From positions 1 through 64,000 of the forward strand of contig JACQZN010000049.1 of the NCBI GenBank assembly GCA_016213845.1: a DNA stretch of 64,000 nucleotides. Reading direction: 5' to 3'. The position numbers were made by a program, and so were the translations under genes. Below the pieces are notes generated by a model. That model was not told the DNA's origin, did not search any database, and saw only the letters and a program-made list of their open reading frames with translations. This document shows positions 1,992 through 48,405 of the stretch, piece after piece; the stretch's first letter is position 1, and the number at the start of each line of letters is the position of its first letter. The stretch is from Candidatus Wallbacteria bacterium (GTDB lineage Bacteria > Muiribacteriota > UBA6191 > JACPRK01).

Positions 1992-2046
1992 GCCGGCAGG
2001 CACCGGGCAACGCTCGGGCTGAGCATGCCGAAGCCCGCCCCTAAAA

Positions 2047-2078
2047 GAGGCCGCCGGAGAGTGCTCTCCGGCGGCCTC
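2047..2078. terminator. Rho-independent terminator between convergent genes
   Basis: A perfect 14-bp inverted repeat (2047-2060 and 2065-2078, gaggccgccggaga arm) surrounds a 4-base loop. On the minus strand it is followed by TTTT (2046-2043), a short U-tract, so it should stop transcription of the 24-kb minus-strand gene run. It may also act on the plus-strand ATP-grasp gene that ends at 1991, although the plus side has only gttct after the stem. Confidence 0.85.
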
Positions 2079-2100
2079 GTTCTACAACCGAATCGCGTAA

Positions 2101-5100
2101 CTACTGGTTGCTCTCGAGCGTGAGCGGCGCGCTCTGCGGGCTGCCCAGCAGGTAGCCCATCCCACGCCGGATCTCGAAGGAGCCCGTCGAACCCGGGACG
2201 AACGGCTGGAACGTGCCGCGGCCCGTCGCCGGGTCGCGGCCCGTCTGCACCACGAAGGAGGCACCGAGCTGCTCGGCAAGATCGCGTGAGTCGTGGTTCT
2301 CGGGAACGTCTCTGGGATACCCGATGGTGTTGACGCCACGACCGACCTCTCGATCCGCCTGTTCCTCCTCCCACTGGACGCCGCGGAACTGGAATTCCCG
2401 CTCGGTCCGATTTCCGCGACTGCAGATGTAACCTTCGTTACCCGTGACATTGAAGCCCGGCGTCAGGTCCGGCAGGAAGACGCGGAACCGCGGCTGTCCG
2501 TCGGCTCCAGTCTCCGTGCGAACGACCCAGTCGAGCCCCATGTCACGCGAAAGCGCTCCTGCATCGTAGTCCGTGCCGTCATTCGTGACCGGCCGCAACG
2601 GAACCGAGATCAGATTGACGCCCGGGAGCAGATCGATTCCCACGGGCGGCTCAAGCTTGGAGCGGAAATCTCTCTCATGCTCGCCCGCTGCGATTCCGCG
2701 GCGACCGATGCTGAACACCGGCGGGGCCACGGCCACCGAAACGCCGCCTGTGGTTGTGAGGCGCGCCTCGAACTTGTCACCAGGCGCTGCGACCGCCGTC
2801 TCTGCGCTGGTGAACTCCACGGAATACCGGCCCGTAGCGCGGTCGACCTCGGAGGCGACCTCCAGCCCGCGCGTCACGTTGCGAATCGTCAGCGTCAGTG
2901 GCTCCGTCGGGACCTCGCCTCGAGGCGCCGATCGGACCTTTCCGTAGATCGCAAGCCTGTCGGTGTCCTCCACGGCGTCTTCCAGGTAGATGGACCGTCG
3001 GGCCGTGTTGCTGAGTCCCCGGCCGATCGCCTTGAGAGCGATCTCGTTACGGCCGGGCTTCAACCTCTTGGCGTCCAGCGCGAAGCTCTCGCCCACGCCG
3101 ATGGTCCGCGGCGGATTGCCCAGGGACCAGACCAGGCGTCGTCCGGAGAGCCGGTTGCCGTCTTCGTCCGTACCCTGGCCTCGGAACTCGATCTTGTCAT
3201 CCGGGAAGAACCGCGCGTTCTCGTCGGGCTTCAAGATCTCGACCGTCACGTCTTCCTTGGCTGGAGGTGCCGTCAGCAAGTCCTGCGTGATCTCTCCGGC
3301 CTGCACTTCACCTGCTGTCACTACCCGGCTAGCCGGGTCGGAAACCTGCAGCCGCTCACCCTTGTCCGAGAGCACCTCGAACACGAGTGTGTCACCGTCC
3401 ACTACCAGGAAGCGGTTGGCGCCGAGACCGCCGAAGGTAGTGCTGAAGCTCCCATCCTCAGACGACGAGGACGGAGTGACCGAGGGCGAAGACACGGCCC
3501 GGCGCGCCTTGTTGATGGCGCGAACCTTGAAGCCCGGGCCGACCGGGTTACCGGAGGAGTCGAGCACCAACCCGTTCACCACGAACTGGGTCGCACCGAT
3601 GCGCCGCTCGCCAACGCTGATCTCGAGCGTGACCTGGTTGTTCCCGGTGTTCTGCTCCACGTTCGACGGGTCGGAGGAGTCGATGCGCACGACCACCTTG
3701 TGCTGCCCGACCGACGCGAACGCCGGCAGGGGCAAAGGTCCGACCTTTCGCACCTGCCGTGCACCGATGCCATCCAGAGTGAAGACCGTCGTGGGCGTGG
3801 TCGGCAGGGCGCCGTCCGCGCTGGCTTCTGGATCGACATAGGCCCTCAAGACGCAGCCGGGAGACCCGGTCGCGCCCCGATTCGCCAGCAAGACACCCAG
3901 ATCCAGCGGCTGTCCCTGCTCCGGGTCCCCGGGGACCACGGCAGCGTGCTCAATGACCAGGTCGTAGCCGCTGGCTTCAGTACCGCTGACGAAGAACTCG
4001 TGCACGCGGGTGTTGTTCTCTTCCACGATTTCGCCAATCGCGTTGCCGTCGTCGACGAACACCACGACGTTGTGCTGTCCCTCGGTGAGCGGTCCGAACG
4101 TGACCGGCTTGAGCGGGAAGACCGAATCGGGCGCCATGTGATCGATCGTCAGTGTCGTCAGCAACGTGCCGTTGGACGCCGCCGTTCGATCCAGGTAGAG
4201 GCTGACCGTAAACGTCGTCACCGGAGTGCCGCCCCGGTTGGCGACCGCGGTCTTGACCTCGATGGTGTCCGAAGTGCCCGGGCGGAACGGATTGATCTGC
4301 ACCAGCGCCGGCACGAGGTCCGTGCGGGCAAACCGATCGTCGGTGACCCGGCCGACGCCGAAGGGCGCGGGCCTGGAGTTGTTACCTTCCTCCTGCTCGT
4401 CGACCTCATTGCCCGTGTCGACGGATAGGACCAAGTCATAGCGACCCTCGGGGAGCGGACCGAAGTTCACCGGCGGGATCGGGCGCCCCGTGAAGGGCGG
4501 CAGATTCTCGACGGTCCCGGTTGCAATGACCGTGGCGGAGGCGTTCTGCCGGAACAGCAGGTCCGCCTGCTCCACGTGCGTCTCGAGCCTCAGCTCCCAA
4601 TTGAACTTCGCAGCGGGGGCGCTGCCGCCGTTGCCGACGGAGAAGAACGCAGTCAGTTCGGTCGAGCTGGTCGCGATCTCCGGCTTCACCGAAATCGGTC
4701 CCGGCACGATGTCGGCCTTGTCCTGACGCCCGGCGAAGGACTTGACCCCGATGAGGTAGGTTCCCGTCTGGAAGGAGAACGGAGCCGAAACGATGGCGTA
4801 GTAGGGACCGTCGTCCTCGGCCTGGAAGCTCACGTGGGACCCGCGTCCCTGTCCGAGGTCCCTGCGAATGGCCCGGCCCGTCTTGTCGCGAATCTCGAGG
4901 ATCGAATCGAAGAGGCCCTCGAGACCCACACCCACTTCGTAGAACTTCCCGGTCGCCGTCGCAAAGACGAAGACGTCACGATCTCCCAGCGGCTGCTTCT
5001 TCTGCAGTCCGGCCATGATGGGCGGCACGTCGACCGCCAGTCCATCGCGCCCGGGCTGCACCTCGGCGATGTTGTCCGCATGGTCATCTTGCTCGGCCTG

Positions 5101-8100
5101 GCCAGCCAGGATCTGCACGGGGACCGGGCTATCCAGGAAGTTGTTCTGCTTGTCGAACTCCGGAACCACGTTCTCGGGGTCGATGGCCATCGCGATCGTG
5201 TACTGGCCTGCGGTCAGCTCGGGCGGCAGCTTCACGACCGTCGCCGTTCCGAACGGTGTCGAGGCAGCCGCTTCGAGGTGGACTTTCACTCGCCCGATCG
5301 GCAGGTAGCGTCGCACCTCACCGTCGCTGGCCACGTTGAGTGCTTGACCGGTCTGGAACGTAAAGTTCTGGTCGGGCTGAGCCATGAAGATCACGTGGAA
5401 GTCGACCGGCCGGCGGATGTTCTCGCCTCGACCACTCCACTTGATCGTGAAGTCCTGACCCGCGGTGCCTTGCGACTGGCCAAACACGCCCGTCGCCACC
5501 AGGTCCGGAATCTCCTTGAGGTACTCAGGCGTGGTCACCTCGAGCGGGTTGGCCGAAAGGACCTTGTTGTTGCCTCGGGTCTCGGCCAGCTCGGGGAGTC
5601 GGCCGTCGGGGTCGACGACCATTGCGATGAAGTAGGGGCCGGGGCGGACGAACGGCGGGATGTTCGTCTCGAACCGGAGCTCCCGAACCTCCTCGCCGCC
5701 GATGCCCGGCACCGGCAACCGTCCCATCGGGAAGTTCTCGCCCACGACCGGGGCGGCCGCGCCGTCGCTCGACAGGATCTGTTCCCGCGTAGCGAAGAAA
5801 GCCACGTCGAAGCCGATCGGGACTGCCTGGGTCGTCACATTCTCGACCTGCCCGGTCACCAGCAACCGCTCTCCGGGGAAGGCAGCTGAGGCTGTCGGAC
5901 TGGCCGGCCTGGCGGAAACCGAAAGCGCAGCCAGATCGACGAGCTTGCCGCCTGAGGTCGGCGCCGTGATGGCCAGGGGTGCGAAGCTGCGCGCGACATT
6001 GTTGCGCTCATCGGTCTCCGCGACCAGGTTGCCACTGTCGACGACCATGCCCAGGAAGTAGCTTCCGGGCTTGAAGAACGGCGGCAACGGGAACTGCCCC
6101 GTCACCACTCGAGACTCACCCGCCGCCAGTGACGGGACAAACTGGGTCCCGAAGGCGAAGTTACCGAGCTCGATCGTGCTCTGAGTGGACAGCACGAACG
6201 ACACCCCGAATCCCGGGCTGGGGTTGGCACCCCGGTTGACTACCTCACCCGCGATCGGCATCAGCGCGCCGAGCTCGGCCGAGGTCGGCCCAGTGACGCC
6301 GACGGCGACCAGGTCGGTCACGCCTGCTTGCTGATCGCCGACGGTCATCGCGCCGAGGGAATCGACGACGTTGTCACCCTCGTTCGTCTCGAACACGAAG
6401 TTCTCGGGATCGACCCGCATCTGGACCTTGTACCCTCCCGGCCGCAGCGGCGGGAGAGGCACGGCCAGGGTCCTGGTGACCGACTCGCTCGGCGAGAGGT
6501 GGTCGACACCGGCTCTTCCCAGGTGAATGAAGTCCGTGAACGTGCCGATCTGCCCACCACCCACGAGCGAGAACTCGAGGGCGAAGGGCCGGAACACCTC
6601 GAAGGTCGAGCCGTTCCTGACCTGCCCTGCGATGCCGAGCACGCTCCCTGGCTGCCCCTGGGAAGGCGGGTTGAGCACGGAGACTGCAACCAGGTTTGGC
6701 TGCCCGCCCGAGGTGCTGCCGGAAATGGGAAGCGGGAACGGATTGGGCGAGCGGTTGTTGTGGTGCGGTTCCTGGATCCGGAAGTTCGGATCGATCACAT
6801 ACGACAGCGCGTACTTGGGAGTCACGCCCGCCATCGTCGGAAGCGGCGGCACGAAGAGCGTCACCGTCGTGAAGACGGAGGTGTCCTGCCCGGAGGGATT
6901 GACCCGCACGCTGGTGGTGAGCGCCTGGAACTCGCCCGAATCGGTGAAGAACTGGAAGGCCAGAGGAACGTCGATCGCCGTCTGCAGTCCCCGGGCGATG
7001 AAGAAGGCCGTGGCCTGGATCTGCGAACCGACGGTCACCGGGCTGAGAGGACCGCGGATCTCCCGGTTGTCCAGGTCGAGGAACTGGGTGGCGCCGCTGC
7101 CGAAAACGCTGACGCGCTGGCGGGAGAAGCGGGAGTTGTTGCTCTCGTCGAGCTCGGGGATCTGGCGATCATGGTCCGCGTACATCGCCAGCAGATACTG
7201 GCCGGGCGCCACCGTGGCGGGCACAGGGAAGTGGCCGAAAACGGGGCGCGTGGTGCCGGGCTGCATGCCCTCTCCCACGAACGTGGCGCCCAGGAAGACC
7301 AGGCCGGTCGACTCGTCCTGACTGTCGAGCGGCGCGTCGGAGGCCGTCAGTGCAAACCCGACCGGGAACCCGGGCGCAAAGCCCGTGTTCTCCCGGTTGG
7401 CCACGACGCCCCGGACAGCGATGAAGCCGCCGGCCTGCGCCGTCGTATCGCCACCGCACTCGAGCGAGACCAGGTCGGGCAGGGCAGTGGAGGCCGTGCC
7501 GCCGATGTCCGTCGTGTTCGGCGCGCCGCGCTCGTTATCGCCCTCGTTCGACTCGTTGACGAAACCCTGCGAATCGGCGAGAGCCGCGACCTTGTAGAGA
7601 CCTGGAGCCATGAACCCGGGCACGAAGAACTGGGTGGTCACGGGCGTCCCGGAGTTGGCGGCCAGTCCCGGAAGCGGAACCTCGCCCAGGAAGAAGCGGC
7701 GGGAATCTCCCGTGACCGCGCTCGAGGAGGCCAGGTTGAAGGCGACCGCGAAGCGTCCGGCGGGTGCAGAGCCCGTGTTCGTCACCTCCGCACTCACCGA
7801 GATCATCTGACCGATCGTGGCGGTGGACGGGCCGCCGACCGCCGTGAAGGTGAGATTCGGTGCGTTCACCGTCTGGCCGGAGCCGACGTTGATTCCGCGG
7901 AAACTTCGGATGGAGTTGTTGAACTCGTTGGACTCGCCAATGAGCTTGCCCGGGTCGGCCTCGAGCCGCAGGAAGTAGAAGCCAGCCGGTAGATCGAGCG
8001 GCAGTTGTACCGTCTCGGTCGACCTGAAGGCCCCTCCGGCGCTCAAACCGGGAGCGAAGAACTTCTTCAGGAACCGCGGCGCCATGGGCGTCGCCGAGTT

Positions 8101-11100
8101 CGGATCCGAATCGAGCAGCAACCCGACCTCGAACTGCGGGACCGAAATCGTGCCGACGTTCTTGACGACGACACCGGCTTCGATCGGCTGGCCGGCCTTC
8201 GCGTCGAAGATTCTCGGACTGACCTCTGCGGCCGCGAGATCGGGCTGCTGGTCGCCGATGGTCTGCCCCGTGCGGATCGACACCGCACCGGCGCTGACCA
8301 GGTAGTTGTTGAGCTCGTTGCCCTCAGCGACACCGAAGCTGGGATCGTCGGCACCGGCCGCCGGGAAGTAGGTGCCCTCACCTACATTTGCCGGCAGAGT
8401 GACAGACTGGAAGACGTCGAAGGATTGGCCCGGCTGCAGACCCGGCACGACCACGTCGGCCAGCCGGCTGCCGTAGGGCGGACCTCCGTTGGCAGGCAGG
8501 AACTGGTTCAAGGAGAAGCCGAAGCCGACCCGGAACGAACCGGCTGCGGCGCGGCCCTGGTTGAGGATGGTCGCGTTGAACGGATACTGGCCGCCCGGCG
8601 TGCCCGTGCTGGGCCCTCCGACCGCCGTCACGATCAGGTCCGGCTTGTCCCCGCCGCCGCCGTTTTGGGGCGGCTGGACGGTGACGGAGGAGCCGGAACG
8701 GATCTGATTGTTCGACTCGTTGAGCTCCGCGACACGATTCCCGGGGAGGTCCACGTCGAGTCTCAGGAAGAACTCGCCCGCCACGAAAGTGGGGACGATC
8801 CGATCGGTCGTGAAGTTGAGCGGGGTGCGGCTGGCCAGCCCAGGGAAGAACTGCTCACCGAGCACGATCGGGGCCGCGGTGGAGTTCGTCGCGGACTGAA
8901 GCAAGAACTGAACACCGAACGGACCGGACGCGCCCGAGCCGGCGTTCTCGACGGCTGCGGAGATCGTGAGGGTGCTGCCGGCGGTGGTCACCGGCGACCC
9001 GCCGACCGCGACGGCCACGAGATCCGGTCCCGTGCCCGTGGTTGTTGTCGAGCCCCGGACCTGCGTTCGGTTCGGCGAGAAGACTGTGTTGTTGTCGTAG
9101 GTCAGCTCGCCGAAGACCTTGGCGGGATTGGCCACTGCGACGACGAAGTAGTCGCCGGGGGACACGTTCTGCGGCACGAACACGGAAGCCGAGAACTGAT
9201 CGGAGCCGGTCGCAGGCAACGTGGGCCTGATGATCGGCTCGCCCAGCGGCACATCGCCACCGGCACCGGCGGCAGCCGGCGGGTTGAAGATGGAATCCGA
9301 AGAGAGAAAGAAACGCACCGCCCAGTCCGGAGCGGGGCCACCGCCCGCGTTGTGGAAGGCACTGGAGACAGAGAGGAGCGCGCCCGCGGAGGTCACCGGG
9401 GCAGGCGAAACGGAGTCGGCCACGAGATCCGGAGGCTGGAAGTTCGGCTGCGCCGCGATCCGCGTGGCGTTGAGACTCGAAACATCGTTGTTGTTCTCGT
9501 CGATCTCGGCGACCTCGTTGAATCGGTCTGCCGCCATCAGCGTGAAGTAGGCGCCCGCGGCCAGCGACGCCGGAATCTTGGGGCTGGTCGTGATCACGTC
9601 AACGGCGCCTGCCGCCAGCGCCGGCCGGCGCATCTCGGCGATCACCAGGTCGGAAGGAGCCGACGGATTGGGCGGATCGAACTCCGTGTCCGTGGAAAGC
9701 GCGAAGCCGACCCCGAAACCTCCGGAAGCGGCGGTGCCAGCATTGCGGACCTCCACCCGGAGACCGAACGGGGACCCGGCGGTGGCCGTCTCGGGCGCCG
9801 TCAGGTTCTGCGACACCAGGTCGGGCCGGTCGCCTGTGGTCTGACCCTGCACAAAGAAGGGCTGGGCCGTGAAGCGTGTGTTGTTCGCCTCGTTGGTCTC
9901 CGTCACGTTCTTGGTGACGTCCGCCACGAGCGCCACGTAGTACTCCCCGGGCGGCAAGTCACCCGGCAGCTTGACATCCGTGGCGAAGGTCGAGACCGCG
10001 AGCGAGCCCAGAGGCGGTCGCGGCAACGGCGCCAGGAAGAGAGGCCTGTCCCCCGGGTTTCCCGCGGAGGGAAGATCGAAGAGCTGGTCCGTGGACAGGA
10101 AGAACTGCACCCCGAAGCCCGGTGCTCCGCCCGAACCGCCATTCTTGATGCCACCACCGACGTTGACCGTGGCACCGGCCGTCGGCGTGGTGGCGCTGGT
10201 GATGGTCACGCCCTCGACCACGAGGTCCGGACTGCCGCTCGGCGTCTGGTTATTGATCTGAGTGGCATGGGTAGCGCCCCGGACGTTGTCGGCCTCGTTG
10301 GTCTCGGTGATCAGCTGGGCGGCATCGACGACCGCGAAGACGACATACTGGCCGGGCTGCAGATCGCTCGGCAGACCCAACGTCAGCGTGAGGTCCCGCG
10401 ATTCGGCGGGGGCGAGGCCCGCGAAGGGGATGTTGTCCCCGAACGGCCGGTCACCCGTGCCGCCTGCACCGGGCGGGTTGAAGACGGTGTCCGTGGAAAG
10501 CAGGAACCGCACGGCGAAAGGTCCCGCCGCCGTACCACCCAGGTTGCGGAATCGAGCGCCGACGAAGATGTTTCCCGGGACGGTCGCCGAAAACGCGGCG
10601 TCGACGCTCTCCATCGCCAGGTTGATTCCGGCAGGCGGCTGCGTCGTGCCCGGCTTGATCTCGAAGAGGTCCTGGCGCACGAACTTGTTGTTGGCGGTGG
10701 TCGATGGGCTGTCACCGGAGCTCTGCGGGTCGATGAAGACGCCGATGGCATAGTGGCCCGTCGTCACGTTCTGCGGAAGCGTCGCCGTCAGCGGAATCTC
10801 TCGCCTGGGATTCTCGGGCGAGATCGGACCCAGCGGGCCCTCGGCCAGGAGCCCCTCGAAGAAAGGCGAATCGCGGCGGATGAAGACCTTGACGACGGTC
10901 TGGTTGGAAGTCGCGGAGCCCATGTTCTCCACGCTGGCCGTGACCGGGAAGCTCTCGCCAATCGTCGCAGCGAGAGGTGCCTGCAGTCCCGTGGCCGCCA
11001 GATCGATTCCCGGAAGGCCGGGACCGCCGCCAGCAACCAGCTGGATGGCGCGTGTGGCCCGATTGTCCGGCGTCGTCAGCGGGGTCTCGTTGACCGACCG

Positions 11101-11457
11101 CGGATCAATCTTCACATGAAGCTGATGTGCGCCTGCCGGAACTCCCGGAGGCAGCTGCACGACAACGACCTTGCTCTGCTCGACCTGCAATTGCAGGCTG
11201 TCCAGGGGCTCGCGCTTGATCGGAGCCGGCTGGTTGTCCATGAGGAAATCGATCGTCGTGGGCGGCGACGGCGCATCGCCCACGTTCTTGACGACGACCG
11301 TGAGCACGAGCGGCTCGTTCAGGGGCGCTTGGGGCGGCCCCTGAAAATCGAGAATCTTGAGATCCGGCGCAGCAAGCGCCTGGCCCCCCCCGGCCAGCAC
11401 CAGGACCGCAGCCAACAATGCGCCCAGGATTGCAGAACCGCTCCGCTGAACCGTCAT
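2101..11457 (-). CDS. Giant secreted CARDB-repeat protein (about 3118 residues)
   Basis: I chose ATG at 11457 because GGAGG lies 6 bases upstream and a clean signal peptide follows (GALLAAVLVLAGGGQALA). Upstream in-frame starts (11508 TTG, 11493 ATG) lack good spacing. About 16 repeats of 110-130 residues follow, each opening with PDLV-like residues and containing V-NxGxxxxxxF and DxxNxVxExxExNN signatures, typical of CARDB Ig-like domains. At about 2120-2240 is a domain resembling the bacterial pre-peptidase C-terminal (PPC) fold. Three more CARDB repeats follow (to about 2620), then a carboxypeptidase-regulatory-like domain (2620-2730), an Ig-like domain (2735-2830), a second regulatory-like domain, and a terminal module with LLPGVNLISVPLRP. 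CARDB domains are adhesion-type modules, so a cell-surface or matrix role is inferred. It is last in an operon with two related genes, 82 bases after the 236-residue protein's stop. Confidence 0.8.
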   Translation of the reverse strand: MTVQRSGSAILGALLAAVLVLAGGGQALAAPDLKILDFQGPPQAPLNEPLVLTVVVKNVGDAPSPPTTIDFLMDNQPAPIKREPLDSLQLQVEQSKVVVVQLPPGVPAGAHQLHVKIDPRSVNETPLTTPDNRATRAIQLVAGGGPGLPGIDLAATGLQAPLAATIGESFPVTASVENMGSATSNQTVVKVFIRRDSPFFEGLLAEGPLGPISPENPRREIPLTATLPQNVTTGHYAIGVFIDPQSSGDSPSTTANNKFVRQDLFEIKPGTTQPPAGINLAMESVDAAFSATVPGNIFVGARFRNLGGTAAGPFAVRFLLSTDTVFNPPGAGGTGDRPFGDNIPFAGLAPAESRDLTLTLGLPSDLQPGQYVVFAVVDAAQLITETNEADNVRGATHATQINNQTPSGSPDLVVEGVTITSATTPTAGATVNVGGGIKNGGSGGAPGFGVQFFLSTDQLFDLPSAGNPGDRPLFLAPLPRPPLGSLAVSTFATDVKLPGDLPPGEYYVALVADVTKNVTETNEANNTRFTAQPFFVQGQTTGDRPDLVSQNLTAPETATAGSPFGLRVEVRNAGTAASGGFGVGFALSTDTEFDPPNPSAPSDLVIAEMRRPALAAGAVDVITTSPKIPASLAAGAYFTLMAADRFNEVAEIDENNNDVSSLNATRIAAQPNFQPPDLVADSVSPAPVTSAGALLSVSSAFHNAGGGPAPDWAVRFFLSSDSIFNPPAAAGAGGDVPLGEPIIRPTLPATGSDQFSASVFVPQNVSPGDYFVVAVANPAKVFGELTYDNNTVFSPNRTQVRGSTTTTGTGPDLVAVAVGGSPVTTAGSTLTISAAVENAGSGASGPFGVQFLLQSATNSTAAPIVLGEQFFPGLASRTPLNFTTDRIVPTFVAGEFFLRLDVDLPGNRVAELNESNNQIRSGSSVTVQPPQNGGGGDKPDLIVTAVGGPSTGTPGGQYPFNATILNQGRAAAGSFRVGFGFSLNQFLPANGGPPYGSRLADVVVPGLQPGQSFDVFQSVTLPANVGEGTYFPAAGADDPSFGVAEGNELNNYLVSAGAVSIRTGQTIGDQQPDLAAAEVSPRIFDAKAGQPIEAGVVVKNVGTISVPQFEVGLLLDSDPNSATPMAPRFLKKFFAPGLSAGGAFRSTETVQLPLDLPAGFYFLRLEADPGKLIGESNEFNNSIRSFRGINVGSGQTVNAPNLTFTAVGGPSTATIGQMISVSAEVTNTGSAPAGRFAVAFNLASSSAVTGDSRRFFLGEVPLPGLAANSGTPVTTQFFVPGFMAPGLYKVAALADSQGFVNESNEGDNERGAPNTTDIGGTASTALPDLVSLECGGDTTAQAGGFIAVRGVVANRENTGFAPGFPVGFALTASDAPLDSQDESTGLVFLGATFVGEGMQPGTTRPVFGHFPVPATVAPGQYLLAMYADHDRQIPELDESNNSRFSRQRVSVFGSGATQFLDLDNREIRGPLSPVTVGSQIQATAFFIARGLQTAIDVPLAFQFFTDSGEFQALTTSVRVNPSGQDTSVFTTVTLFVPPLPTMAGVTPKYALSYVIDPNFRIQEPHHNNRSPNPFPLPISGSTSGGQPNLVAVSVLNPPSQGQPGSVLGIAGQVRNGSTFEVFRPFALEFSLVGGGQIGTFTDFIHLGRAGVDHLSPSESVTRTLAVPLPPLRPGGYKVQMRVDPENFVFETNEGDNVVDSLGAMTVGDQQAGVTDLVAVGVTGPTSAELGALMPIAGEVVNRGANPSPGFGVSFVLSTQSTIELGNFAFGTQFVPSLAAGESRVVTGQFPLPPFFKPGSYFLGMVVDSGNLVAETDERNNVARSFAPLAITAPTSGGKLVDLAALSVSARPASPTASAAFPGERLLVTGQVENVTTQAVPIGFDVAFFATREQILSSDGAAAPVVGENFPMGRLPVPGIGGEEVRELRFETNIPPFVRPGPYFIAMVVDPDGRLPELAETRGNNKVLSANPLEVTTPEYLKEIPDLVATGVFGQSQGTAGQDFTIKWSGRGENIRRPVDFHVIFMAQPDQNFTFQTGQALNVASDGEVRRYLPIGRVKVHLEAAASTPFGTATVVKLPPELTAGQYTIAMAIDPENVVPEFDKQNNFLDSPVPVQILAGQAEQDDHADNIAEVQPGRDGLAVDVPPIMAGLQKKQPLGDRDVFVFATATGKFYEVGVGLEGLFDSILEIRDKTGRAIRRDLGQGRGSHVSFQAEDDGPYYAIVSAPFSFQTGTYLIGVKSFAGRQDKADIVPGPISVKPEIATSSTELTAFFSVGNGGSAPAAKFNWELRLETHVEQADLLFRQNASATVIATGTVENLPPFTGRPIPPVNFGPLPEGRYDLVLSVDTGNEVDEQEEGNNSRPAPFGVGRVTDDRFARTDLVPALVQINPFRPGTSDTIEVKTAVANRGGTPVTTFTVSLYLDRTAASNGTLLTTLTIDHMAPDSVFPLKPVTFGPLTEGQHNVVVFVDDGNAIGEIVEENNTRVHEFFVSGTEASGYDLVIEHAAVVPGDPEQGQPLDLGVLLANRGATGSPGCVLRAYVDPEASADGALPTTPTTVFTLDGIGARQVRKVGPLPLPAFASVGQHKVVVRIDSSDPSNVEQNTGNNQVTLEISVGERRIGATQFVVNGLVLDSSGNPVGPGFKVRAINKARRAVSSPSVTPSSSSEDGSFSTTFGGLGANRFLVVDGDTLVFEVLSDKGERLQVSDPASRVVTAGEVQAGEITQDLLTAPPAKEDVTVEILKPDENARFFPDDKIEFRGQGTDEDGNRLSGRRLVWSLGNPPRTIGVGESFALDAKRLKPGRNEIALKAIGRGLSNTARRSIYLEDAVEDTDRLAIYGKVRSAPRGEVPTEPLTLTIRNVTRGLEVASEVDRATGRYSVEFTSAETAVAAPGDKFEARLTTTGGVSVAVAPPVFSIGRRGIAAGEHERDFRSKLEPPVGIDLLPGVNLISVPLRPVTNDGTDYDAGALSRDMGLDWVVRTETGADGQPRFRVFLPDLTPGFNVTGNEGYICSRGNRTEREFQFRGVQWEEEQADREVGRGVNTIGYPRDVPENHDSRDLAEQLGASFVVQTGRDPATGRGTFQPFVPGSTGSFEIRRGMGYLLGSPQSAPLTLESNQ

Positions 11458-11539
11458 CTCAAACCTCCGCTGAGTTCGATGGATGCTCTTCATGATGTTT
11501 TCTCTCAAAACTCCCGATGGGGTGTCGCGTTCCAGTCTT

Positions 11540-12250
11540 CTACAACTTCACCTTGAATTCCAGTGTGGAGATCGAGGAGTTGGCAATGTCCGTTCGCGTC
11601 AGCCCGTACCCCGAGGGCTCGACGGAGAACTCCTTGCCACTCTTGTCCCGCACGGCGAACCGGAATCGGTCGCCCTCCTTGATGCGCGGGAACTCGCCCT
11701 GCAGATCGATGAAGATCAGGGCGAACTTGCCGCCCTCGATCTCCTCGCTTGTCTTGCGATCGCCCCGTTCCGTGGTGACGTGCATGACGTAGCCGGGCGC
11801 AAGCGGCTTGCCGCCCGAGTCGTAGACCCGGCCGCCGAAGGCGAACGCCTCCACCGCTTCCTGAGGCGGCAGCTCGACCCGCACCACCCCGACGTCCAGC
11901 ACGCCGGCCGATAGAGCCGCCTGGTCGAGCTTGAAGCTCGCGGCCTGCCCCGCCCTCATCGGCACAGGTTTCGCCATTGGGTCCTCGACCAAGATTCCCA
12001 CTTCCTGCCCAGCCGATAGCCCCGAAACGGTCAACGTGAACTCTCCAGTGCTCCGATTGGGACTTGCGGTCCCGCTCACTTCCACACCCTTCGTCCGCGC
12101 CCTGACCGTGAAGCCATTAGGCGCAGCCTGGTCTGTCTCCGTCTTTACGATTCCCCGGATCTTGACCGACGCCGGCGTCTCCGCCGCGTGCGCCAAGGTC
12201 CAAGCAAAAACAAGGCCGAGAATTCCGAACATGATCGAACGAAGTCTCAT
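11540..12250 (-). CDS. Small secreted protein made of domains shared with the giant CARDB proteins
   Basis: The protein is 236 residues with a signal peptide (FGILGLVFAWTLAHA). It contains two copies of a beta-rich domain of about 100 residues. The first has GIVKTETDQ..NGFTVRARTK and the second GRVYDSGGKPLAPGYVMHV. The same signature is found near the C-termini of both flanking giants (GLVLDSSGNPVGPGFKVRAINK and GTVSGGG..GTRVRALNRTR). The gene lies between them on the same strand, with gaps of 40 and 82 bases. It looks like the regulatory-like domain of the giants as a free-standing protein, perhaps a partner or minor surface subunit. No catalytic motif is visible. The domain relationship is read from the sequence; the role is inferred. 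Confidence 0.65.
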   Translation of the reverse strand: MRLRSIMFGILGLVFAWTLAHAAETPASVKIRGIVKTETDQAAPNGFTVRARTKGVEVSGTASPNRSTGEFTLTVSGLSAGQEVGILVEDPMAKPVPMRAGQAASFKLDQAALSAGVLDVGVVRVELPPQEAVEAFAFGGRVYDSGGKPLAPGYVMHVTTERGDRKTSEEIEGGKFALIFIDLQGEFPRIKEGDRFRFAVRDKSGKEFSVEPSGYGLTRTDIANSSISTLEFKVKL

Positions 12251-12290
12251 TTTCCTGCTCGCCTCCCGGTGGCTCTCCTCGCGGCAGCTC

Positions 12291-15200
12291 TCACGGCTGA
12301 CCCGGCAGGGTCAACGGCTGCGGCCTAGGAGCTCCCACAATGTAACCCTTCCCCTCCTCCAGAGGGAAGCCCGATCCTAGACCCCGCACGAAGACCTCGA
12401 ATCGGCCCCCGAGCGTCCGCCCCACAAAGGCACTTCCCGACCGTTCCAGAAGCTCCGACGCCATCGACCCGGCCTGGGGGCCAAACGGCAGCCCCACCAG
12501 CCCCGTCCCCCTGGGCAACGTCGTCCTGAGCTGCTCGGCAGGCCATGACACGCCGCTCCAGTCGACCGTGCCGGGTCCGCCAGCTCGAAGCACCAGGTAT
12601 CCCTCGCTGCCGCTGAGCTCGAAGTCCTCGCTCACATTCGGAAGGAAGAGCTGGAAACGCCCCTGCCCCGAGCCGTCCGCGCGCACGCGCACCGCGAACG
12701 TTCCGCCCGTCGCCCGGACCAGGTCGGAAGCCCTCGGAGGAGCTTGGCCCGTCGTGTCCGGATTGACCGGCACGCTGAGCAGGTTCAACCCCCGCTCGAG
12801 CGCCACGCGCCTCTGCCGGGCCAGCAAGCCCACGCGCAGGTCCACCGTCCGCTGCTGCGTTACCAGGTCCCGCAGCCCCACGCGGAACAGGGCCGGCGTC
12901 ACGGGCAGCCGCGCCAGCCGCGCGTCCCGCACCTCCAGCCGCATCGTCTCCCCCAGCACGGCCACCGATTCCGCGGGCGATAGAAGCGTCACCGAATAGG
13001 CCCCCCCGCCGCGCACCAGCCCGCTCGCCGCCCGACCCGTTCGCGCGTTCACCAGCGTCACCACCGACCCGGCCGCCACTGCCGCCCCGGTGGCCGAGAG
13101 CCTCGCCACGCCGGCCGCGCCAAGTCTACGAGTGAAAGGCTCCGAATGCTCCTGGACTTGCACGTCGAGGAAGAGCTGCGCCAGCTGACCGGATTCGTCG
13201 CGCGCCTCCAGGCGGACACGATTCCGTCCCGCCGGCAGCCGGCTGGCCAGCTCCTCCCCCACACCGAACGGCACGGACAACCGATCCGAGCTCCAGCTCA
13301 ACCTCTGGCCGGTCAGCCGCCGTCCGTCGGACCCGGTCGCTATCGCCTCGAAGGCTATCGGCTCGTCGGCAAGGAACAGGTCGCCCCCTGCCGGCCGCAG
13401 GATGCGCGCCGTCACCATCCCCCTCGGAGACGGCACCACGCGCACGTCGGCCCGGACCCTGCCGGCCGAGACCGCGCCGGCAGTCACGACCAGAGTCGCC
13501 GGCGACGCCACCGCCGGTAGCGCACCGGACGGCTCCTCGACCACCAGCTCCAGCTCATCACCCACGGCGGCCGCGATCGGCTCCTGGGAATCGAGACCTC
13601 CCAGCGTGACCACGTAGCTCCCCTCTACCGACGCGTCCGCGGGGACCAGCGCCCGGGCAGTGGACCGCCCCCGCGTGCGGTTCAACGCCCGCACGCGCGT
13701 TCCGGCGAGAACCGCCGCCCCACCTCCGCCGGAGACTGTCCCGAAGAGCTCCAGCGCCTTCGTGGAGACCCGGCTCTCCGAGACGGCGAAGGAGAGCGTC
13801 GTCTCGTTGTCGAATGGATTGACCTCCCCCGCGGCGACTGCCGCCACCCGGACCGAAAGCCGGTGGATTCCGGCCCTCGACAGCGTCCCGAGCTCCACCG
13901 CCGGCAGCGTCGCCGTCGAAGCAGCCGCCACCGACAAGAGCCGAGTGGCCGCGCCGACCTCCACTCCGTCCAGGAACACGCGCGCGTCCAGCGGACCCGA
14001 CCCCGTATCGCCCAGGTTCGAGACGAATCCCGCGAGCGCGATTGCATCACGAGTCGTTGGAGCCGCCGGCTCCACCGAGATCGGACCGGGCACGAGCTCG
14101 AAGCCAGACACCTGCGAGGGGGCCACACCGAAGGCAATCGACAGCCGCCCGTCCCCGGCGTCCGCTCTGGGAACGACTCCCTGCGGATCGACCTCGAGCG
14201 TGAGCGAGTGCGCCCCCGCCGTCAGACCTGCCAGCGCGACAGGCGGCAGCGCAACCCGCCCGCCGGCTGCCAATCCATCGATCGAGAAGACGGTCACGAT
14301 TCGTCCCCGCGCCACCGAGCTCCGGTCCAGCACCAGCTGAGCCGAGAACCCGGGTGCCCGGGCCGTCCCCAGGTTCCCGATCGTGCCGAGAGCGACGACC
14401 CGCCCCGTGGCCGTCGTCGGCCGGAACGGATCGATCGAGAGCGCCAGCGCCGCCAGGCTTGCGGCAGGACGGGCCGCGGCCACCCTCAGCGCCACTGCCG
14501 CCGAGTTGTTCCCCTCCGCGCCCTCGGCCACCTCATCTGCGGCGTCGACATTCAGGACGACGTCATAGTCGCCGGCTGCCAGCGGGCCCGTCACGACAGG
14601 CCCGATCGCGGCGGACGCCAGCGCCGCGAGCCCTCCGATACGTCCCGATCCGAGCGAGACCGCGGCAAGCGCGGCGCGGCCCTCACCGCAAAGGACGCAG
14701 ATCCTGGGAACCGCCCGGAGCTCCCATCGGAACGCCCCGGCACCAGCCGTTCCGGCATTCGAGACCCTCGCCTCCACGCGGACCGACTCGCGAGTCGTCG
14801 GACTCGATGGCGAAAGCGACACCGGGCCGGCAACCAGGTCGGCTGCCGCGGGCAGGGAGGAGCCGACACTCAGGCCGAGCGAGTAACCGCCCAGGGGCGC
14901 CGGCACCTCGTGGAGCACCAGGACGGTGTACCTGCCAACCTGGGCCAGCTCCAAGACGTCCAGCCGCACCGGCTGCCCGGGTGCGGGAACCACGCCGCGC
15001 ACACGGGAGCCATCGGGCCGGACCACTTCCAGCGCGGGCGCCGAACCGCCGAGGGCCGAGAGCGTCACCTGGGCGAACCCTCCTGCCGTCGAGACGTCGA
15101 AGAAGTAGGCGTCGCGATCACCCGCCGCCTCGAGGAGACCCTGCCGGGCCGCCGGCCCGGCCGACAGGCGCTGAGACTCCGAGAGGCTCGAAGGCACCGG

Positions 15201-18200
15201 CTGCCCGGGTGCGGGCGGTGAGTCGTCGGCCGCGAACGTGCCGGCCGCGACGGCCACGAGCGGGCTCTCCAGCACGCGCACGTTGTCGAGCTCGTCAGTC
15301 TCGGCGTACGCATTTGCCGGATCGATGACCAGCGCTATGCGGTACTGGCCCGCCGTCAAGCCCGGCCGGATCAGGCACGGCACGGAAACAGTCGCCGACG
15401 CGTTGGCGGGCACGCGCGCCGTGGCGCGGCCCAGCACGATGTCGGCGGGTGACGGCACCCGGCCACCCTGGGCAGACAGGACCACCTGAGCCTCCACCGG
15501 CAGCGTCGCGGCCGAGCCGCGCGCCGCCACGGTGACCGACACAGGGAAAGTGGAGCCTGTGACGGCAGCCGCAACCGAACCGAGCGCGGCTGCTGCAAAA
15601 TCCGGCGCGCCCGCCAGCAGAGGTGGCGTCGAGATCGCGATGGAAGAGGCCGACGCCAGCGTGTTGTTGCGCCGGTTCGCGTCCGGAACCCTCCGCTCGA
15701 AATCGGCGGAGACTCCGAGGAAGTAGTCGCCGGGCGGCACAGGCGGCATCGGGAAGGCCCCGGTCGCGAGCACGGTCTGCCCGCTCGAGAGCGCCGAGAG
15801 CGCCACCGAGCCGAGAGCGCTCCCGGCCTCAGGTCCGTCCAGCGGCCGCGTCGTCAGGAAAAACCGCACGAGGAAAGGCGAAGCCACCCCCGAACCGCCG
15901 GAGTTGGCGACGGCAGCGACCGCCGTCACGCGGTCGCCCGGGAACCTCGGGGCCGGACTGAATCGCGCGAGCGACACCTGCAGCACGGACAGGTCGGGCA
16001 GCGCGGCCGGGCTCACCGGAAGCAAGAGCGCTGTCGGCGCGGAGGACCGGGCCACGTTGTCCAGCTCGCTCGGCTCCGCGACGAAGTCGTTCGGGTCGAC
16101 CAGCATCGCGACCGTGTAACTCCCCGGAGAAAGGAAGGACGGCACTCCGCGAGTGGCGGAGAGGCTCCGCACTTCCCCGGGGGCCAATGCCCCGAGCAGT
16201 GCGGGCTCCCCAAGCGGCGGGTCCAGGATGCTCGACTCGCCGCCCGAGGTCAGGACGAAGACGATCGAGGCGTCGGCCTGGGCCGGACCGTCGTTTCGGA
16301 CGGTTCCGGTGACACTCAGCCCTCCCCCGAGCGACGCGGCGCCGCCCGCGACGACCGACACGGCCGCCAGGTTGGTCAGCGCCGCGCTCCTCGCCAGTCG
16401 CGTCAGGACCGTTGCCGTTCCCAGATTGTCCAACTCGCTCGACTCCACGACGCTTCGTGCGGAATCCACTTCGGCTCGGACGGCGTAGCTGCCAGGTCCC
16501 GCGGCGGCGGGCACCGGCGCGGTGGGGGAGAGCGCGATCGACTCGCCTGCCCCCGGCCCCGGCAGCTGCAGGGTGAGCAGCGGGAGTCTCGCAGCCGGAT
16601 TCGAAGCCGGATCGCGCTCCTCGAGGAAGAAGGCCACGGCCACCGGACCCGACACAGGCACGGCCGAGGAGTTTGCGACCGTCGCGGCAAGTTGCATGAC
16701 CTGGCCGGGCTGTGCGCTGACCGGCCCCGAGACCGCCGTGACCGTCAGATTGGGAAGCGACGCGGGCGGCGGCGGCTGAATCGTGACCGCCACCGCGAGG
16801 GCGGGCGAATCGTTGAAACGCGGCTGGTCGATCGCGGCCGAGGGATCGGCAATCGACTCGAGAGAGTAATTCGCTCCGCCCAGATTCGGGTCGGGCACCG
16901 GCACCGGGGGCACCACGACCTGCTGCGTCAGGGTCCGGACCTCTCCGGGCGCCAGGCCGGGCACCACCAAGCGGCCGAAGAGGTGAACGTTTCCGCCCGG
17001 GGGCGTGAAGAGGTTCAAGGCCAGCTCCACGTCCAGGGGCGAGGTGCCGCCGACGAGCGCCACCACCGAGGTGACCGAGATCGTCTGGCCCACGGTGAGG
17101 TCGCGCGGGTTGCAGTCGACACTCCGCACCACCACGTCGGCGGGAGAAACGATGGTCACGGCCGCGCCTGCGGTCGCCACGTTGTTCCCCGGATCGGGGT
17201 CCGCGGCGGAAGCGCCGGAATCGACGACGACCCCTACGAAGTAGACACCCGTGGCAATCCCGCTGGGCACAGCGGCGCGGCCCGCGACCTGTGCGCTGCT
17301 CCCCTCGCCGGCGGTCGCCACCGAGAGCGGCGTGCCGAGCAGGATGTCCGTGCCAGCAGAGAAGTTGCGGTCGCGCGAGAGGAAGAATCGGGCCGTCGTG
17401 GAAGTCGACGCGGGCCCCAGGTTGGTGACGGTGGCCGAGAACTCGAGCGTGCCGTTTGCGGCAACGCGGGTGCTGGCCGTCACGGCCGTCACGGACAGAT
17501 CGGCCGGTTCCCCCAGCAGCACAGGCGCAGCGCTGAACGTGAAGTTGTTGGCCTCGCTGGCTTCGAGGACGGCGCGCGCGCTGTCCGCCTCGCAGTAGGC
17601 GAATGCGGGGCCGGTCGCGATGTTCGACGGGAAGGTGCCCGTGACGGCGACGGTGGCGGCGGAACCTGCGGAGAGCGGCGGAACCTGTGCGAGGCCGAGC
17701 AAGACGTCGGTCGTGGCGCGGGAGGCCGAGCGCGCCAGCCAGAGTGATGCCCGGCTCGCGGGCGCCGGCGACCCGCCTGCGTTCCGCAGCACGGCCGAGA
17801 AGCCTGCCCGGGTGCCGAGCTGACCCGCAGACGGCGCCGTGAGAAGCTCGACGACCAGGTCGGCCAGCGTGGCGGGAGTCGTCACGGGGAAAGCCGCAGC
17901 GCTGGCCGCCGTGTTGTTCGTCTCGTCGGACTCCTGGACGCGGCCTGTGACGTCGGCGATCAGCCCGACACGGTAGCTGCCGGCGGGGAGCGCCGCCGGA
18001 ACCGTGGCTGTGAGGGCGCACGGGACGGCTTGTCCCGAGGGCAGCGTCCCTACGAGGACCGTGCCCAGGAGCGCATCGGCCAGCGAGATCGTCGAGTCCG
18101 AGGAGAGGACGAAGCCGGCCTCGAAGGAGCCGGCGGCCTGCGAGCCCGAGTTGGTGACCACGCCGCTCACGAAGACGGGACGATCGACCTCCCCTGCCGA

Positions 18201-19133
18201 GGGCCCCGTGACGGAGCCAGAGACGAGGTCGGGATCACCGGCGTTGCCCTGCTTGGGGCTGACCGTGAAGGCGGCGGGCGTGCTGAGATTGTTCGCCTCG
18301 GAGGACTCGCGCACGAGGTCCTCGGGGTCGGCCCGCAACAGCAGCTGGTACTCGCCCGGCAATACCGGCGGGATGGTGAGCGTGACGCGGGTAGAGATCG
18401 TGCCGGCGTCGACCGTCCCGGGTGCGGCCGTGAAGTTCAGGAACGCCGTCCGGCCTGCCTCCGGATCACGTGCGTCTGCCACCGCGTCGGGCGAAAGCAG
18501 GACGGCAGCCGTGGCGTGGAAGGCGCTGTTGCCGTCCACGATGCCGCTGAGAAGTCCGTCGAGCGTGATATCGGCCAGCACGACGTCGCTGGCCACGGCA
18601 CCGGGCGGGGCCGAGATCGTGGCGTTGCCGAAGTCGGGGAGGTTGGCGTTGGCGGCGCGGTAGACGCCGACCACGAAGTCGTAGCGCGTCATCGTGATCC
18701 CACTCGTGCAGCGGAACAGGTAGTCCGCGGCCGCGGGCGCGGTGAAGCTGATGGCGGACACCCGCCGCGAGAGCGCGTCCAGCCCCTGAAAGGCAGGCAG
18801 CGCTCGCGCGCCGGTGGCGTCGAAGAACGTGGCGCCGAACTGGGGACCGGGCGCAGAGACGGCCGTCACCCGCAACGTCACGACGTCGCCGAAGCGGGCG
18901 CGGACCTTGTAGAAGTCGACGTCCGAATCGGTCTCGAATGCCCCTCGGAAAGATCCGACCCCGAAGAGCGTGCCGGCACCCAGAAGAGTCGCTGTATCCG
19001 CTGTGTCGTTGCGGCCGGCGCCTTCGAGCTGCGAGTCGAGCGGCTGCGCCACAGCCAGCGGGGGCGCCCCGAAAAGCGCAAGGAGTAGAAGGACCCAGAT
19101 GAAGGGCCAGCGGGCTCGAGCTTCGAGGTGCAT
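12291..19133 (-). CDS. Giant secreted CARDB-repeat protein (about 2280 residues)
   Basis: An AGGAGG box directly abuts the ATG at 19142, leaving no spacer, so I chose the ATG nine bases on at 19133. A signal peptide follows (VLLLLALFGAPPLAVA). Residues about 40-160 resemble a PPC domain, followed by nine CARDB-like repeats (LPDF, DPDLV, LADLV, PADLS and similar openings). A second PPC-like domain lies at about 1300-1420, then three more CARDB repeats, a regulatory-like domain (about 1795-1895), an Ig-like domain (1900-2000), another regulatory-like domain, and a terminal module with LERGLNLLSVPVNP. From the second PPC onward the domain order is the same as in the 3118-residue neighbour, so the two are paralogues with different repeat numbers. 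Surface adhesion is inferred from the domain type. Confidence 0.8.
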   Translation of the reverse strand: MHLEARARWPFIWVLLLLALFGAPPLAVAQPLDSQLEGAGRNDTADTATLLGAGTLFGVGSFRGAFETDSDVDFYKVRARFGDVVTLRVTAVSAPGPQFGATFFDATGARALPAFQGLDALSRRVSAISFTAPAAADYLFRCTSGITMTRYDFVVGVYRAANANLPDFGNATISAPPGAVASDVVLADITLDGLLSGIVDGNSAFHATAAVLLSPDAVADARDPEAGRTAFLNFTAAPGTVDAGTISTRVTLTIPPVLPGEYQLLLRADPEDLVRESSEANNLSTPAAFTVSPKQGNAGDPDLVSGSVTGPSAGEVDRPVFVSGVVTNSGSQAAGSFEAGFVLSSDSTISLADALLGTVLVGTLPSGQAVPCALTATVPAALPAGSYRVGLIADVTGRVQESDETNNTAASAAAFPVTTPATLADLVVELLTAPSAGQLGTRAGFSAVLRNAGGSPAPASRASLWLARSASRATTDVLLGLAQVPPLSAGSAATVAVTGTFPSNIATGPAFAYCEADSARAVLEASEANNFTFSAAPVLLGEPADLSVTAVTASTRVAANGTLEFSATVTNLGPASTSTTARFFLSRDRNFSAGTDILLGTPLSVATAGEGSSAQVAGRAAVPSGIATGVYFVGVVVDSGASAADPDPGNNVATAGAAVTIVSPADVVVRSVDCNPRDLTVGQTISVTSVVALVGGTSPLDVELALNLFTPPGGNVHLFGRLVVPGLAPGEVRTLTQQVVVPPVPVPDPNLGGANYSLESIADPSAAIDQPRFNDSPALAVAVTIQPPPPASLPNLTVTAVSGPVSAQPGQVMQLAATVANSSAVPVSGPVAVAFFLEERDPASNPAARLPLLTLQLPGPGAGESIALSPTAPVPAAAGPGSYAVRAEVDSARSVVESSELDNLGTATVLTRLARSAALTNLAAVSVVAGGAASLGGGLSVTGTVRNDGPAQADASIVFVLTSGGESSILDPPLGEPALLGALAPGEVRSLSATRGVPSFLSPGSYTVAMLVDPNDFVAEPSELDNVARSSAPTALLLPVSPAALPDLSVLQVSLARFSPAPRFPGDRVTAVAAVANSGGSGVASPFLVRFFLTTRPLDGPEAGSALGSVALSALSSGQTVLATGAFPMPPVPPGDYFLGVSADFERRVPDANRRNNTLASASSIAISTPPLLAGAPDFAAAALGSVAAAVTGSTFPVSVTVAARGSAATLPVEAQVVLSAQGGRVPSPADIVLGRATARVPANASATVSVPCLIRPGLTAGQYRIALVIDPANAYAETDELDNVRVLESPLVAVAAGTFAADDSPPAPGQPVPSSLSESQRLSAGPAARQGLLEAAGDRDAYFFDVSTAGGFAQVTLSALGGSAPALEVVRPDGSRVRGVVPAPGQPVRLDVLELAQVGRYTVLVLHEVPAPLGGYSLGLSVGSSLPAAADLVAGPVSLSPSSPTTRESVRVEARVSNAGTAGAGAFRWELRAVPRICVLCGEGRAALAAVSLGSGRIGGLAALASAAIGPVVTGPLAAGDYDVVLNVDAADEVAEGAEGNNSAAVALRVAAARPAASLAALALSIDPFRPTTATGRVVALGTIGNLGTARAPGFSAQLVLDRSSVARGRIVTVFSIDGLAAGGRVALPPVALAGLTAGAHSLTLEVDPQGVVPRADAGDGRLSIAFGVAPSQVSGFELVPGPISVEPAAPTTRDAIALAGFVSNLGDTGSGPLDARVFLDGVEVGAATRLLSVAAASTATLPAVELGTLSRAGIHRLSVRVAAVAAGEVNPFDNETTLSFAVSESRVSTKALELFGTVSGGGGAAVLAGTRVRALNRTRGRSTARALVPADASVEGSYVVTLGGLDSQEPIAAAVGDELELVVEEPSGALPAVASPATLVVTAGAVSAGRVRADVRVVPSPRGMVTARILRPAGGDLFLADEPIAFEAIATGSDGRRLTGQRLSWSSDRLSVPFGVGEELASRLPAGRNRVRLEARDESGQLAQLFLDVQVQEHSEPFTRRLGAAGVARLSATGAAVAAGSVVTLVNARTGRAASGLVRGGGAYSVTLLSPAESVAVLGETMRLEVRDARLARLPVTPALFRVGLRDLVTQQRTVDLRVGLLARQRRVALERGLNLLSVPVNPDTTGQAPPRASDLVRATGGTFAVRVRADGSGQGRFQLFLPNVSEDFELSGSEGYLVLRAGGPGTVDWSGVSWPAEQLRTTLPRGTGLVGLPFGPQAGSMASELLERSGSAFVGRTLGGRFEVFVRGLGSGFPLEEGKGYIVGAPRPQPLTLPGQP

Positions 19134-19194
19134 GTCGGCCATCCTCCTACCGGGGCGCCTCGCCCGCCGGTCGCGGCCTCGCCCGTGCGGCCCC

Positions 19195-19683
19195 TCAAGG
19201 GCCGGGGAAACAGGCTCGGACGTCCTCGAACAGCTCTGGAGGCACCAGCCCCGAGATATCGCCCTGCAACCGGGCGATCTCCTTGACGATGCTGGACGAA
19301 AGGTAGTGGTACTTGGGCGACGTCATCATGAACACGGTCTCGATCTCCTGCGCAAGGTATCGATTCATCGAGGCCATTTGAAACTCGTACTCGAAGTCCG
19401 AAATGGCGCGCAGCCCGCGCACCAGCACGGCAGACCCGCGGCTTCTGGCGAAGCTCGTCAGGAGCCCTCCGAAGGTGGTCACGCTCACGTTGGGGAACGG
19501 CTTGACGATCTTCTCCAGCATCTCGAGCCGCTTCTCCTCGGGGAAGGCGAATCGCTTGGTGTTGGAGCTCTCGGAGATGGCGACGACCACACGAGCGAAG
19601 AGCTTGGAGGCGCGCTCGATGATGTCGAGATGACCCAGGGTCGCCGGATCGAAACTGCCGGGGTAGATGGCGGTGATGTCCAT
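19195..19683 (-). CDS. coaD: Phosphopantetheine adenylyltransferase
   Basis: A 162-residue cytoplasmic enzyme of normal family length. It transfers AMP from ATP to 4'-phosphopantetheine, the fourth step of coenzyme A synthesis. The nucleotidyltransferase motif YPGSFDPATLGHLDII is at the N-terminus, LVRGLRAISDFEYEFQ in the middle, and YHYLSSSIVKEIA near the C-terminus, all as in CoaD. It lies 61 bases upstream of the first giant CARDB gene on the same strand, so it may be co-transcribed. The housekeeping function has no obvious link to the surface proteins. The start has no clear ribosome binding site. The upstream leader is made of 7-bp repeats. Confidence 0.95.
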   Translation of the reverse strand: MDITAIYPGSFDPATLGHLDIIERASKLFARVVVAISESSNTKRFAFPEEKRLEMLEKIVKPFPNVSVTTFGGLLTSFARSRGSAVLVRGLRAISDFEYEFQMASMNRYLAQEIETVFMMTSPKYHYLSSSIVKEIARLQGDISGLVPPELFEDVRACFPGP

Positions 19684-19712
19684 GGCTAGTAGAAGTCGGA
19701 AGGTGGGGGGAG

Positions 19713-19750
19713 AGTAGTCAGTAGACAGTAGTCAGAAGACAGTAGTCAGT
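19713..19750. repeat. Heptamer tandem array, AGTAGNC family
   Basis: Five full 7-bp units (AGTAGTC, AGTAGAC, AGTAGTC, AGAAGAC, AGTAGTC) plus a partial one. It lies just upstream of coaD and faces an inverted array of the same family at 19911-19935. The same unit recurs at 25530, 44127, 44334 and 48381. Confidence 0.85.
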
Positions 19751-19910
19751 CGTGAGCTTTGCGGGTCGCTGGTGGGGAAACTGGCACAAGGTCGAGCGTC
19801 CGCAGAACCGGGGCCTGGACGTCCTTCGGCGGGAGCGGGACGAGTGTTACCCCGGATGGATCAAGGTGCATGACAGGCGGCCTCGGAGGGATCGTGACCG
19901 GCAGACTTCC

Positions 19911-19935
19911 TACTGGCTACTGACTACTGGCTACT
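19911..19935. repeat. Heptamer tandem array (inverted orientation), overlapping the end of the HEAT-repeat gene
   Basis: Units TACTGGC, TACTGAC, TACTGGC and a partial TACT, the reverse complement of the array at 19713. Its right end supplies the last codons and TAG stop of the HEAT-repeat gene (Ser-Ser-Gln-stop at 19924-19935). The 160 bases between this array and the one at 19713 show no gene I can support. Confidence 0.85.
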
Positions 19936-25425: not shown

Positions 25426-25529
25426 GCGCTCGCTTCCGCCTCGCGACCTCGGAAGCGGGATTTGCAATTGTAATACAGCGACCCCGTCCGGAGCAATGGA
25501 AGTGGGCGGGGAGGTGGAAGATGGGAGGG

Positions 25530-25562
25530 AGTAGTCAGTAGACAGTAGACAGTAGACAGTAG
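25530..25562. repeat. Heptamer tandem array, AGTAGNC family
   Basis: Units AGTAGTC, AGTAGAC (three times) and a partial AGTAG. It lies in the 512-bp intergenic region 25426-25937, upstream of the SNF2 gene. Apart from this and the larger repeat cluster next to it, that region shows no gene I can support. Confidence 0.85.
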
Positions 25563-25608
25563 GGGGGGCGGGCACGGTCGGCTCGGCCATCGGTGCCGGT
25601 GGCTCCTC

Positions 25609-25823: not shown

Positions 25824-25937
25824 CATTCTCTTCGCATTCTCTTCGCGGCGATTGCCGTGAACTTGGGCGCGCCGGGACTGGCCGGCGGTCAGCGGTCGGG
25901 CTGGCTGCGGGCGGTCTCTGCCTCCCCCGATGACGGG

Positions 25938-48380: not shown

Positions 48381-48405
48381 GACTGGCTACTGACTACTGG
48401 CTACT
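48381..48405. repeat. Heptamer tandem array, AGTAGNC family (inverted)
   Basis: Units GACTGGC, TACTGAC, TACTGGC and a partial TACT, ending six bases before the stop of the downstream pseudopilin gene. Confidence 0.85.

Follow-up and report, generated by a model that had tools for sequence, protein, structure and literature searches.

Genomic organization of the locus

The window (the whole 64,000-nucleotide stretch of DNA analysed here) belongs to a 6.2-Mb MAG of an uncultivated bacterium from groundwater that is 83.9% complete (G000), and two relatives of the same genus (G001 and G002) were used for comparison. Four genes on its minus strand, in the direction of transcription a coaD-like gene, giant 2, a gene for a 236-residue protein and giant 1, are separated by 52, 40 and 31 bp, respectively (Table 1). 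A previous sequence-only reading of this DNA had described three adjacent minus-strand genes, two coding for CARDB giants and one for the 236-residue protein, and the open reading frames confirmed this arrangement. The lengths that it gave for the giants (about 3118 and 2280 residues) match inner ATG start codons (at 11457 and 19133); G002 also has a Met at the equivalent of 11457 (RRFDM for RRFEM). A scan of window positions 1950-20000 found no promoter- or terminator-like sites above chance, so that the operon rests on the spacing and orientation of the genes. The coaD-like gene, which was kept in all eight genomes searched, has the same orientation and is 52 bp upstream of giant 2, so that transcription may cover more than the three genes.

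Several other features of the window were recorded. A further giant of 2799 residues (28120-36519, plus strand) has a lipobox-like start, many Ig-like repeats and, by eye, an NHL-like C-terminus; it does not carry the terminal module described below. Arrays of a 7-bp unit (CTACTGN) lie mostly between likely genes (19714-19745, 19910-19934, 25531-25562, 44128-44159, 44333-44371 and 48387-48404), with 15 matches to an 18-mer at no more than two mismatches and none expected. In addition, an imperfect repeat of about 58 bp is present in three copies at 25610-25828 (minus strand), in the 5' part of the open reading frame 23704-25815.

Table 1. Features of the locus (window positions; R, 'regulatory-like' domain; M, two-fold GxNLxSVP module)
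Feature	Position	Strand	Remarks
Giant 1 (P0001)	2101-11508	minus	3135 aa from TTG, 3118 aa from ATG at 11457; N to C: signal peptide, 16 CARDB, PPC-like, 3 CARDB, R, Ig-like, R, M
16 CARDB, giant 1	5140-11361	minus	iterated profile, each E 5e-18 or better
PPC-like, giant 1	4786-4983	minus	weak, Pfam PPC E 0.0095, under cut-off
3 further CARDB, giant 1	3637-4692	minus	iterated repeat profile
R domain 1, giant 1	3250-3597	minus	R profile
Ig-like stretch between R domains, giant 1	2962-3249	minus	label of the sequence-only reading
R domain 2, giant 1	2644-2961	minus	R profile
M, giant 1	2104-2640	minus	two units, 2356-2640 and 2104-2355; ends at stop codon
Small secreted protein (P0002)	11540-12250	minus	236 aa; signal peptide and two R, without M
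R domains, P0002	11864-12172 and 11543-11851	minus	R profile
Giant 2 (P0003)	12291-19142	minus	2283 aa, 2280 aa from 19133; N to C: signal peptide, 9 CARDB, 3 CARDB, R, Ig-like, R, M
9 CARDB, giant 2	15282-18572	minus	iterated repeat profile
3 CARDB, giant 2	13869-14837	minus	iterated repeat profile
R domains, giant 2	13425-13766 and 12813-13139	minus	R profile
Ig-like stretch, giant 2	13140-13424	minus	between the R domains
M, giant 2	12294-12809	minus	two units; ends at stop codon
coaD-like gene	19195-19683	minus	named from sequence; upstream anchor of the locus

Domain architecture of the giants and the small protein

The fibre part of both giants belongs to the CARDB family (PF07705; Pfam E 2e-150 and 4e-81, 490 and 268 bits against a cut-off of 22.7), of which the R-Ig-R-M end is not part. 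As had been proposed, the giants differ in the number of these repeats, 16 + 3 in giant 1 and 9 + 3 in giant 2 (19 and 12 by the iterated profile). An alignment of 2128 columns with 28% identity (E 4e-147) runs lengthwise through both. Each ends in two M units of about 90 residues (E 4e-25 to 9e-21). The common C-terminal order described in the sequence-only reading holds for CARDB, R and M; the PPC-like domain (PF04151) of giant 1 reached only 17.2 bits (cut-off 25.9) and was not reproduced in two stretches of giant 2, and the Ig-like stretch had no Pfam match.

That the 236-residue protein consists of two R domains was borne out by a profile of the giants' four R copies, which found it among 4837 open reading frames at E 9.7e-11 (second copy E 9e-7, first copy only 0.12); pairwise BLASTP did not show its likeness to the giants. 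Its best Pfam hit was CarboxypepD_reg (PF13620), with a strand pattern similar to R by eye, yet far under the cut-off (12.6 bits, E 0.18, cut-off 32.3). The idea that it is a broken piece of a giant was ruled out by its own signal peptide (by eye) and by a full-length ortholog in G002 (69%).

Gene order in related genomes

In G002, the ortholog of the small protein directly follows coaD, and the start of a giant 1 ortholog, recognised by its N-terminus, comes next at the contig end. The other end of giant 1 in this genome (62% over 1447 residues) lies on another contig, where it adjoins an ATP-grasp-like gene (our naming; 72%), as it does in the window. Giant 2 is missing at the G002 locus. 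The coaD gene of G001 is 98% identical; shortly beyond it the similarity at the DNA level breaks off, and the next gene, on the opposite strand, codes for a different M protein. Within the gaps of these MAGs, which limit the count, one of the two relatives has the pair of small protein and giant 1, and neither has all three genes in order. A conserved three-gene system is thus not what the relatives show, and a fixed cassette was rejected on gene order. Giant 2 appears to be a paralog that was either acquired or lost here.

Occurrence of M in the genome

M was identified in 35 proteins of G000 (69 units), with two or more units in 33 of them and a single unit in two. This count leaves out a 37-residue fragment on contig C66 and a weak hit on C106, and the two rows of C22, like the two of C110, were taken as one protein. 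In 27 proteins M is flush with the C-terminus (0.7 expected under random placement); six copies are near the N-terminus, one is internal with three units, and one ends 35 residues before the protein end. It should be noted that the unit profile was built from 26 C-terminal G000 copies, which match by construction, and the other nine do not. M was also C-terminal in all of the best 19 loci examined in G001 and G002, one of them at a contig end. The M proteins appear to be mostly exported: a crude hydropathy scan gave signal-peptide-like starts for 23 of the 35 frames, although for two of these (loci L037 and L061) the position is doubtful, and by eye several of the remaining 12 look exported as well.

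Besides the two giants, 20 of the 35 proteins were scanned with Pfam, some of them as frames that are partial at the end of the fetched stretch. Their heads are unrelated and include matrixin (L043, L047 and L053), fungalysin (L050), kelch with PKD (L037), CARDB (L046) and a hydrolase-like domain (L048). Cohesin-like stretches were seen in three M proteins (L049, L056 and, weakly, L061), none of which reached the Pfam cut-off (E 6e-5, 9e-5 and 0.027). Two genes upstream of the one at L061 lies a gene for an R protein that has dockerin repeats. This secreted protein of 579 residues (6172-7911 of the locus, contig C67) carries R, two dockerin type I repeats (Pfam E 7.9e-6) and, by eye, a cohesin-like stretch. 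In cellulosomes, cohesins are linked to SLH anchors by anchoring scaffoldins, and a similar joining would suit an anchor role for M. Also at L061, a gene beside that of the M protein codes for a secreted protein of 1159 residues (2641-6120), whose tail consists of a Gly/Cys-rich stretch followed by a hydrophobic segment and RRNR and resembles GlyGly/JDVT/MYXO-CTERM tails; against NCBIfam the protein gave only a partial match, to a myxosortase-dependent M36 family.

Family, predicted fold and distribution of M

No meaningful match was found when 19 copies of M were scanned against Pfam and NCBIfam, in neither of which it is a named sorting domain. The M profile had no match among PDB sequences, nor had the M of giant 1 in PHROGs, and neither M nor a system of this composition was found in open-licence PMC papers. 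On the basis of these searches, M would be a paired domain that was previously uncatalogued.

A single unit (about 85 residues; from L072, eight rows) was predicted with pLDDT 91.8 and pTM 0.79 as two strands, a helix and four strands. The double module (four rows) was predicted poorly (pLDDT 64), and its fold search was set aside. Comparison of the unit model with the PDB (best Foldseek E 0.35, best VIA-align Z 3.9) shows neither a relative nor a new fold. The top VIA-align row, BusR RCK_C (Z 3.9), was tied with other rows and was not taken as a relative.

With the last 180 residues of giant 1 as the query, a search of 56 genomes found M in G000 (36 matches), G001 (22) and G002 (42) and had no match in G003, which belongs to the same order; the remaining genomes contributed a single marginal match (G005). 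Similarly, a 19-row M profile matched 37, 24 and 47 times in these three genomes among 39 genomes of the phylum, with weak matches (E 1e-6 to 1e-3) in G009, G010, G015 and G017 that are two-fold or single GWNLISL-type modules at either protein end. A profile search of genome contigs with a 3-row M query gave two loci. Among the candidates scored in 286 genomes (12 per genome, so that counts are lower bounds), M was found outside the phylum at E 1e-6 or better only in G077 (at least seven places) and G222 (at least six). In its distribution, M is nearly restricted to a single genus of the 'Candidatus Wallbacteria' lineage.

Association of M with R and with T9SS tails

R was found in 12 open reading frames of G000, nine of which carry M; 0.08 would be expected by chance for an assumed 5500 genes (p about 1e-18), a figure that is inflated because the R profile was partly built from M loci. 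In seven G000 proteins R directly precedes M, ending no more than six residues from its start. In G077 and G222, R follows M in all 13 places among the matches listed, and is weak in three of them: one G222 case (weak in one search, E 1.6e-8 in another) and two in G077, on C26 (E 5e-4) and C78 (in one search only). This pairing gives independent support to the link between the two domains. From these sequence profiles, R and M appear to belong together, and the pair is seen in three lineages.

All 13 M proteins of G077 and G222 have a T9SS type A tail (TIGR04183) at the C-terminus, after R. Matches to this tail numbered 35 in G077 and 30 in G222, and four, two and none in G000, G001 and G002; they were over the cut-off in two G000 proteins. 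None of the 35 M proteins of G000 ends in TIGR04183, and the 19 M copies scanned against NCBIfam did not match it either. SprA_N was over the cut-off in G222 and under it in G077; none was found in G000-G002, which are MAGs only 72-84% complete, nor in 14 control genomes.

Envelope context and comparison with known systems

At L096 (17098-18969, contig C80), G000 encodes a protein in which an SLH domain is followed by a coiled coil and then by a barrel-like part with Phe as its last residue (coil and barrel as judged by eye), similar to an OmpM-like outer-membrane tether. Such a protein points to a diderm envelope for G000. The genus also has SLH proteins that are separate from the M proteins. 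Considering these together with the two T9SS-tail proteins of G000, M is not the only candidate anchor there.

In layout, M is closest to modules that many secreted proteins of a genome carry in tandem at either terminus. CWB2 of Clostridioides difficile is described in 29 proteins, as tandem motifs at either end with about 27% average identity between motifs (PMC4973711). M resembles it in its dozens of paralogous proteins per genome, in tandem divergent repeats at the N- or C-terminal end and in unlike heads that include proteases and adhesins (PMC4973711). However, CWB2 has three units and M usually two, the host of M looks diderm, and no sequence match to CWB2 or SLH was found when 19 M copies were scanned with Pfam. 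SLH (PF00395) is likewise a repeated envelope module on large secreted proteins, whereas the genome with M has its own separate SLH proteins, one of them with the coiled coil and barrel-like end. The T9SS type A domain is C-terminal on many secreted proteins of one genome, as M is, but M also occurs at the N-terminus and lies upstream where both are present.

Possible role of M

We suggest that M is a terminal envelope-anchoring module of CWB2/SLH-like layout with R as its companion, a reading to which we give about an even chance, as the function is inferred from placement. The sequence-only reading had supposed an anchoring or assembly module common to the operon; the idea as such is well supported, but with 35 proteins in G000 the module is not specific to this operon. 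The six copies near the N-terminus are better explained by a binding module that can be placed freely than by a signal restricted to the C-terminus. Counting against an anchor, the fold search of the M unit gives no functional lead, and in G077 and G222 a recognised sorting domain follows the non-terminal M, so that M need not anchor there.

Alternatively, M might be a C-terminal export signal, perhaps processed, for an undescribed outer-membrane translocon, as the T9SS C-terminal domain is in Bacteroidota. The high number of copies flush with the C-terminus, the diderm appearance of the genome and the distribution of SprA_N (over the cut-off in G222 and under it in G077, none in G000-G002) would agree with this, as would the fact that M and the T9SS tail do not share a C-terminus in G000, G077 or G222. 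However, the lack of SprA comes from MAGs 72-84% complete, no conserved linker or cleavage motif was seen by eye before M, and of the 35 copies six are near the N-terminus and one, with three units, is internal; moreover, M lies inside the protein in G077 and G222 and cannot be a terminal signal there. We consider an export signal unlikely. That M is simply a domain for capping or for binding a ligand such as glycan, which was shuffled within one genus and is terminal by habit, seems rather unlikely too. This would explain the mobility of M, the distant GWNLISL-type relatives at both protein ends and the many enzyme or adhesin-like heads, which recall proteins with carbohydrate-binding modules; on the other hand, M is common to proteins with very unlike heads, ends most of them exactly, pairs with R in three lineages and has no resemblance to known binding modules in Pfam, NCBIfam, PDB sequences or Foldseek. 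CARDB repeats are common in surface proteins, and one might take the locus for an adhesin operon that has been described before and whose sorting domain is known. Given that M lacks a meaningful Pfam or NCBIfam match, that gene order is not kept in relatives and that the open-licence PMC literature yielded no such system, this is highly improbable.

Under the anchoring interpretation, the giants would be Sec-exported, rod-like proteins of Ig-type CARDB repeats, and M, their last 180 residues or so, would be a pair of compact beta-rich units that holds exported proteins on the envelope genome-wide, with R just before it as a companion. The small R-R protein, made beside giant 1, may pack against the R/M end of the fibre as an accessory subunit. 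The architecture, the spread and position of M, its pairing with R and the adjacency of the small protein and giant 1 in G002 can be read directly from the sequences, whereas we infer both that M holds proteins on the envelope, through a binding partner there, and that the small protein binds giant 1. A bolder proposal appears quite unlikely to us: M would be the tag by which an undescribed system of this lineage for export through, and anchoring at, the outer membrane recognises its proteins, having replaced the T9SS tail that closes the M-R proteins of other phyla, with R as docking partner and the R-R protein as a free adaptor of the machinery.

The kind of device proposed here is already known; what seems to be new is the genus-wide expansion of an uncatalogued terminal module and its pairing with R across phyla. 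If M does act as a surface anchor, a large part of the surface proteins of an uncultivated diderm lineage could be recognised by sequence alone, with a profile that annotators lack. The M-R pair, which is accompanied by a T9SS tail in two other genomes but not in this one, would also offer a natural comparison by which a change of sorting route, if there was one, could be tested.
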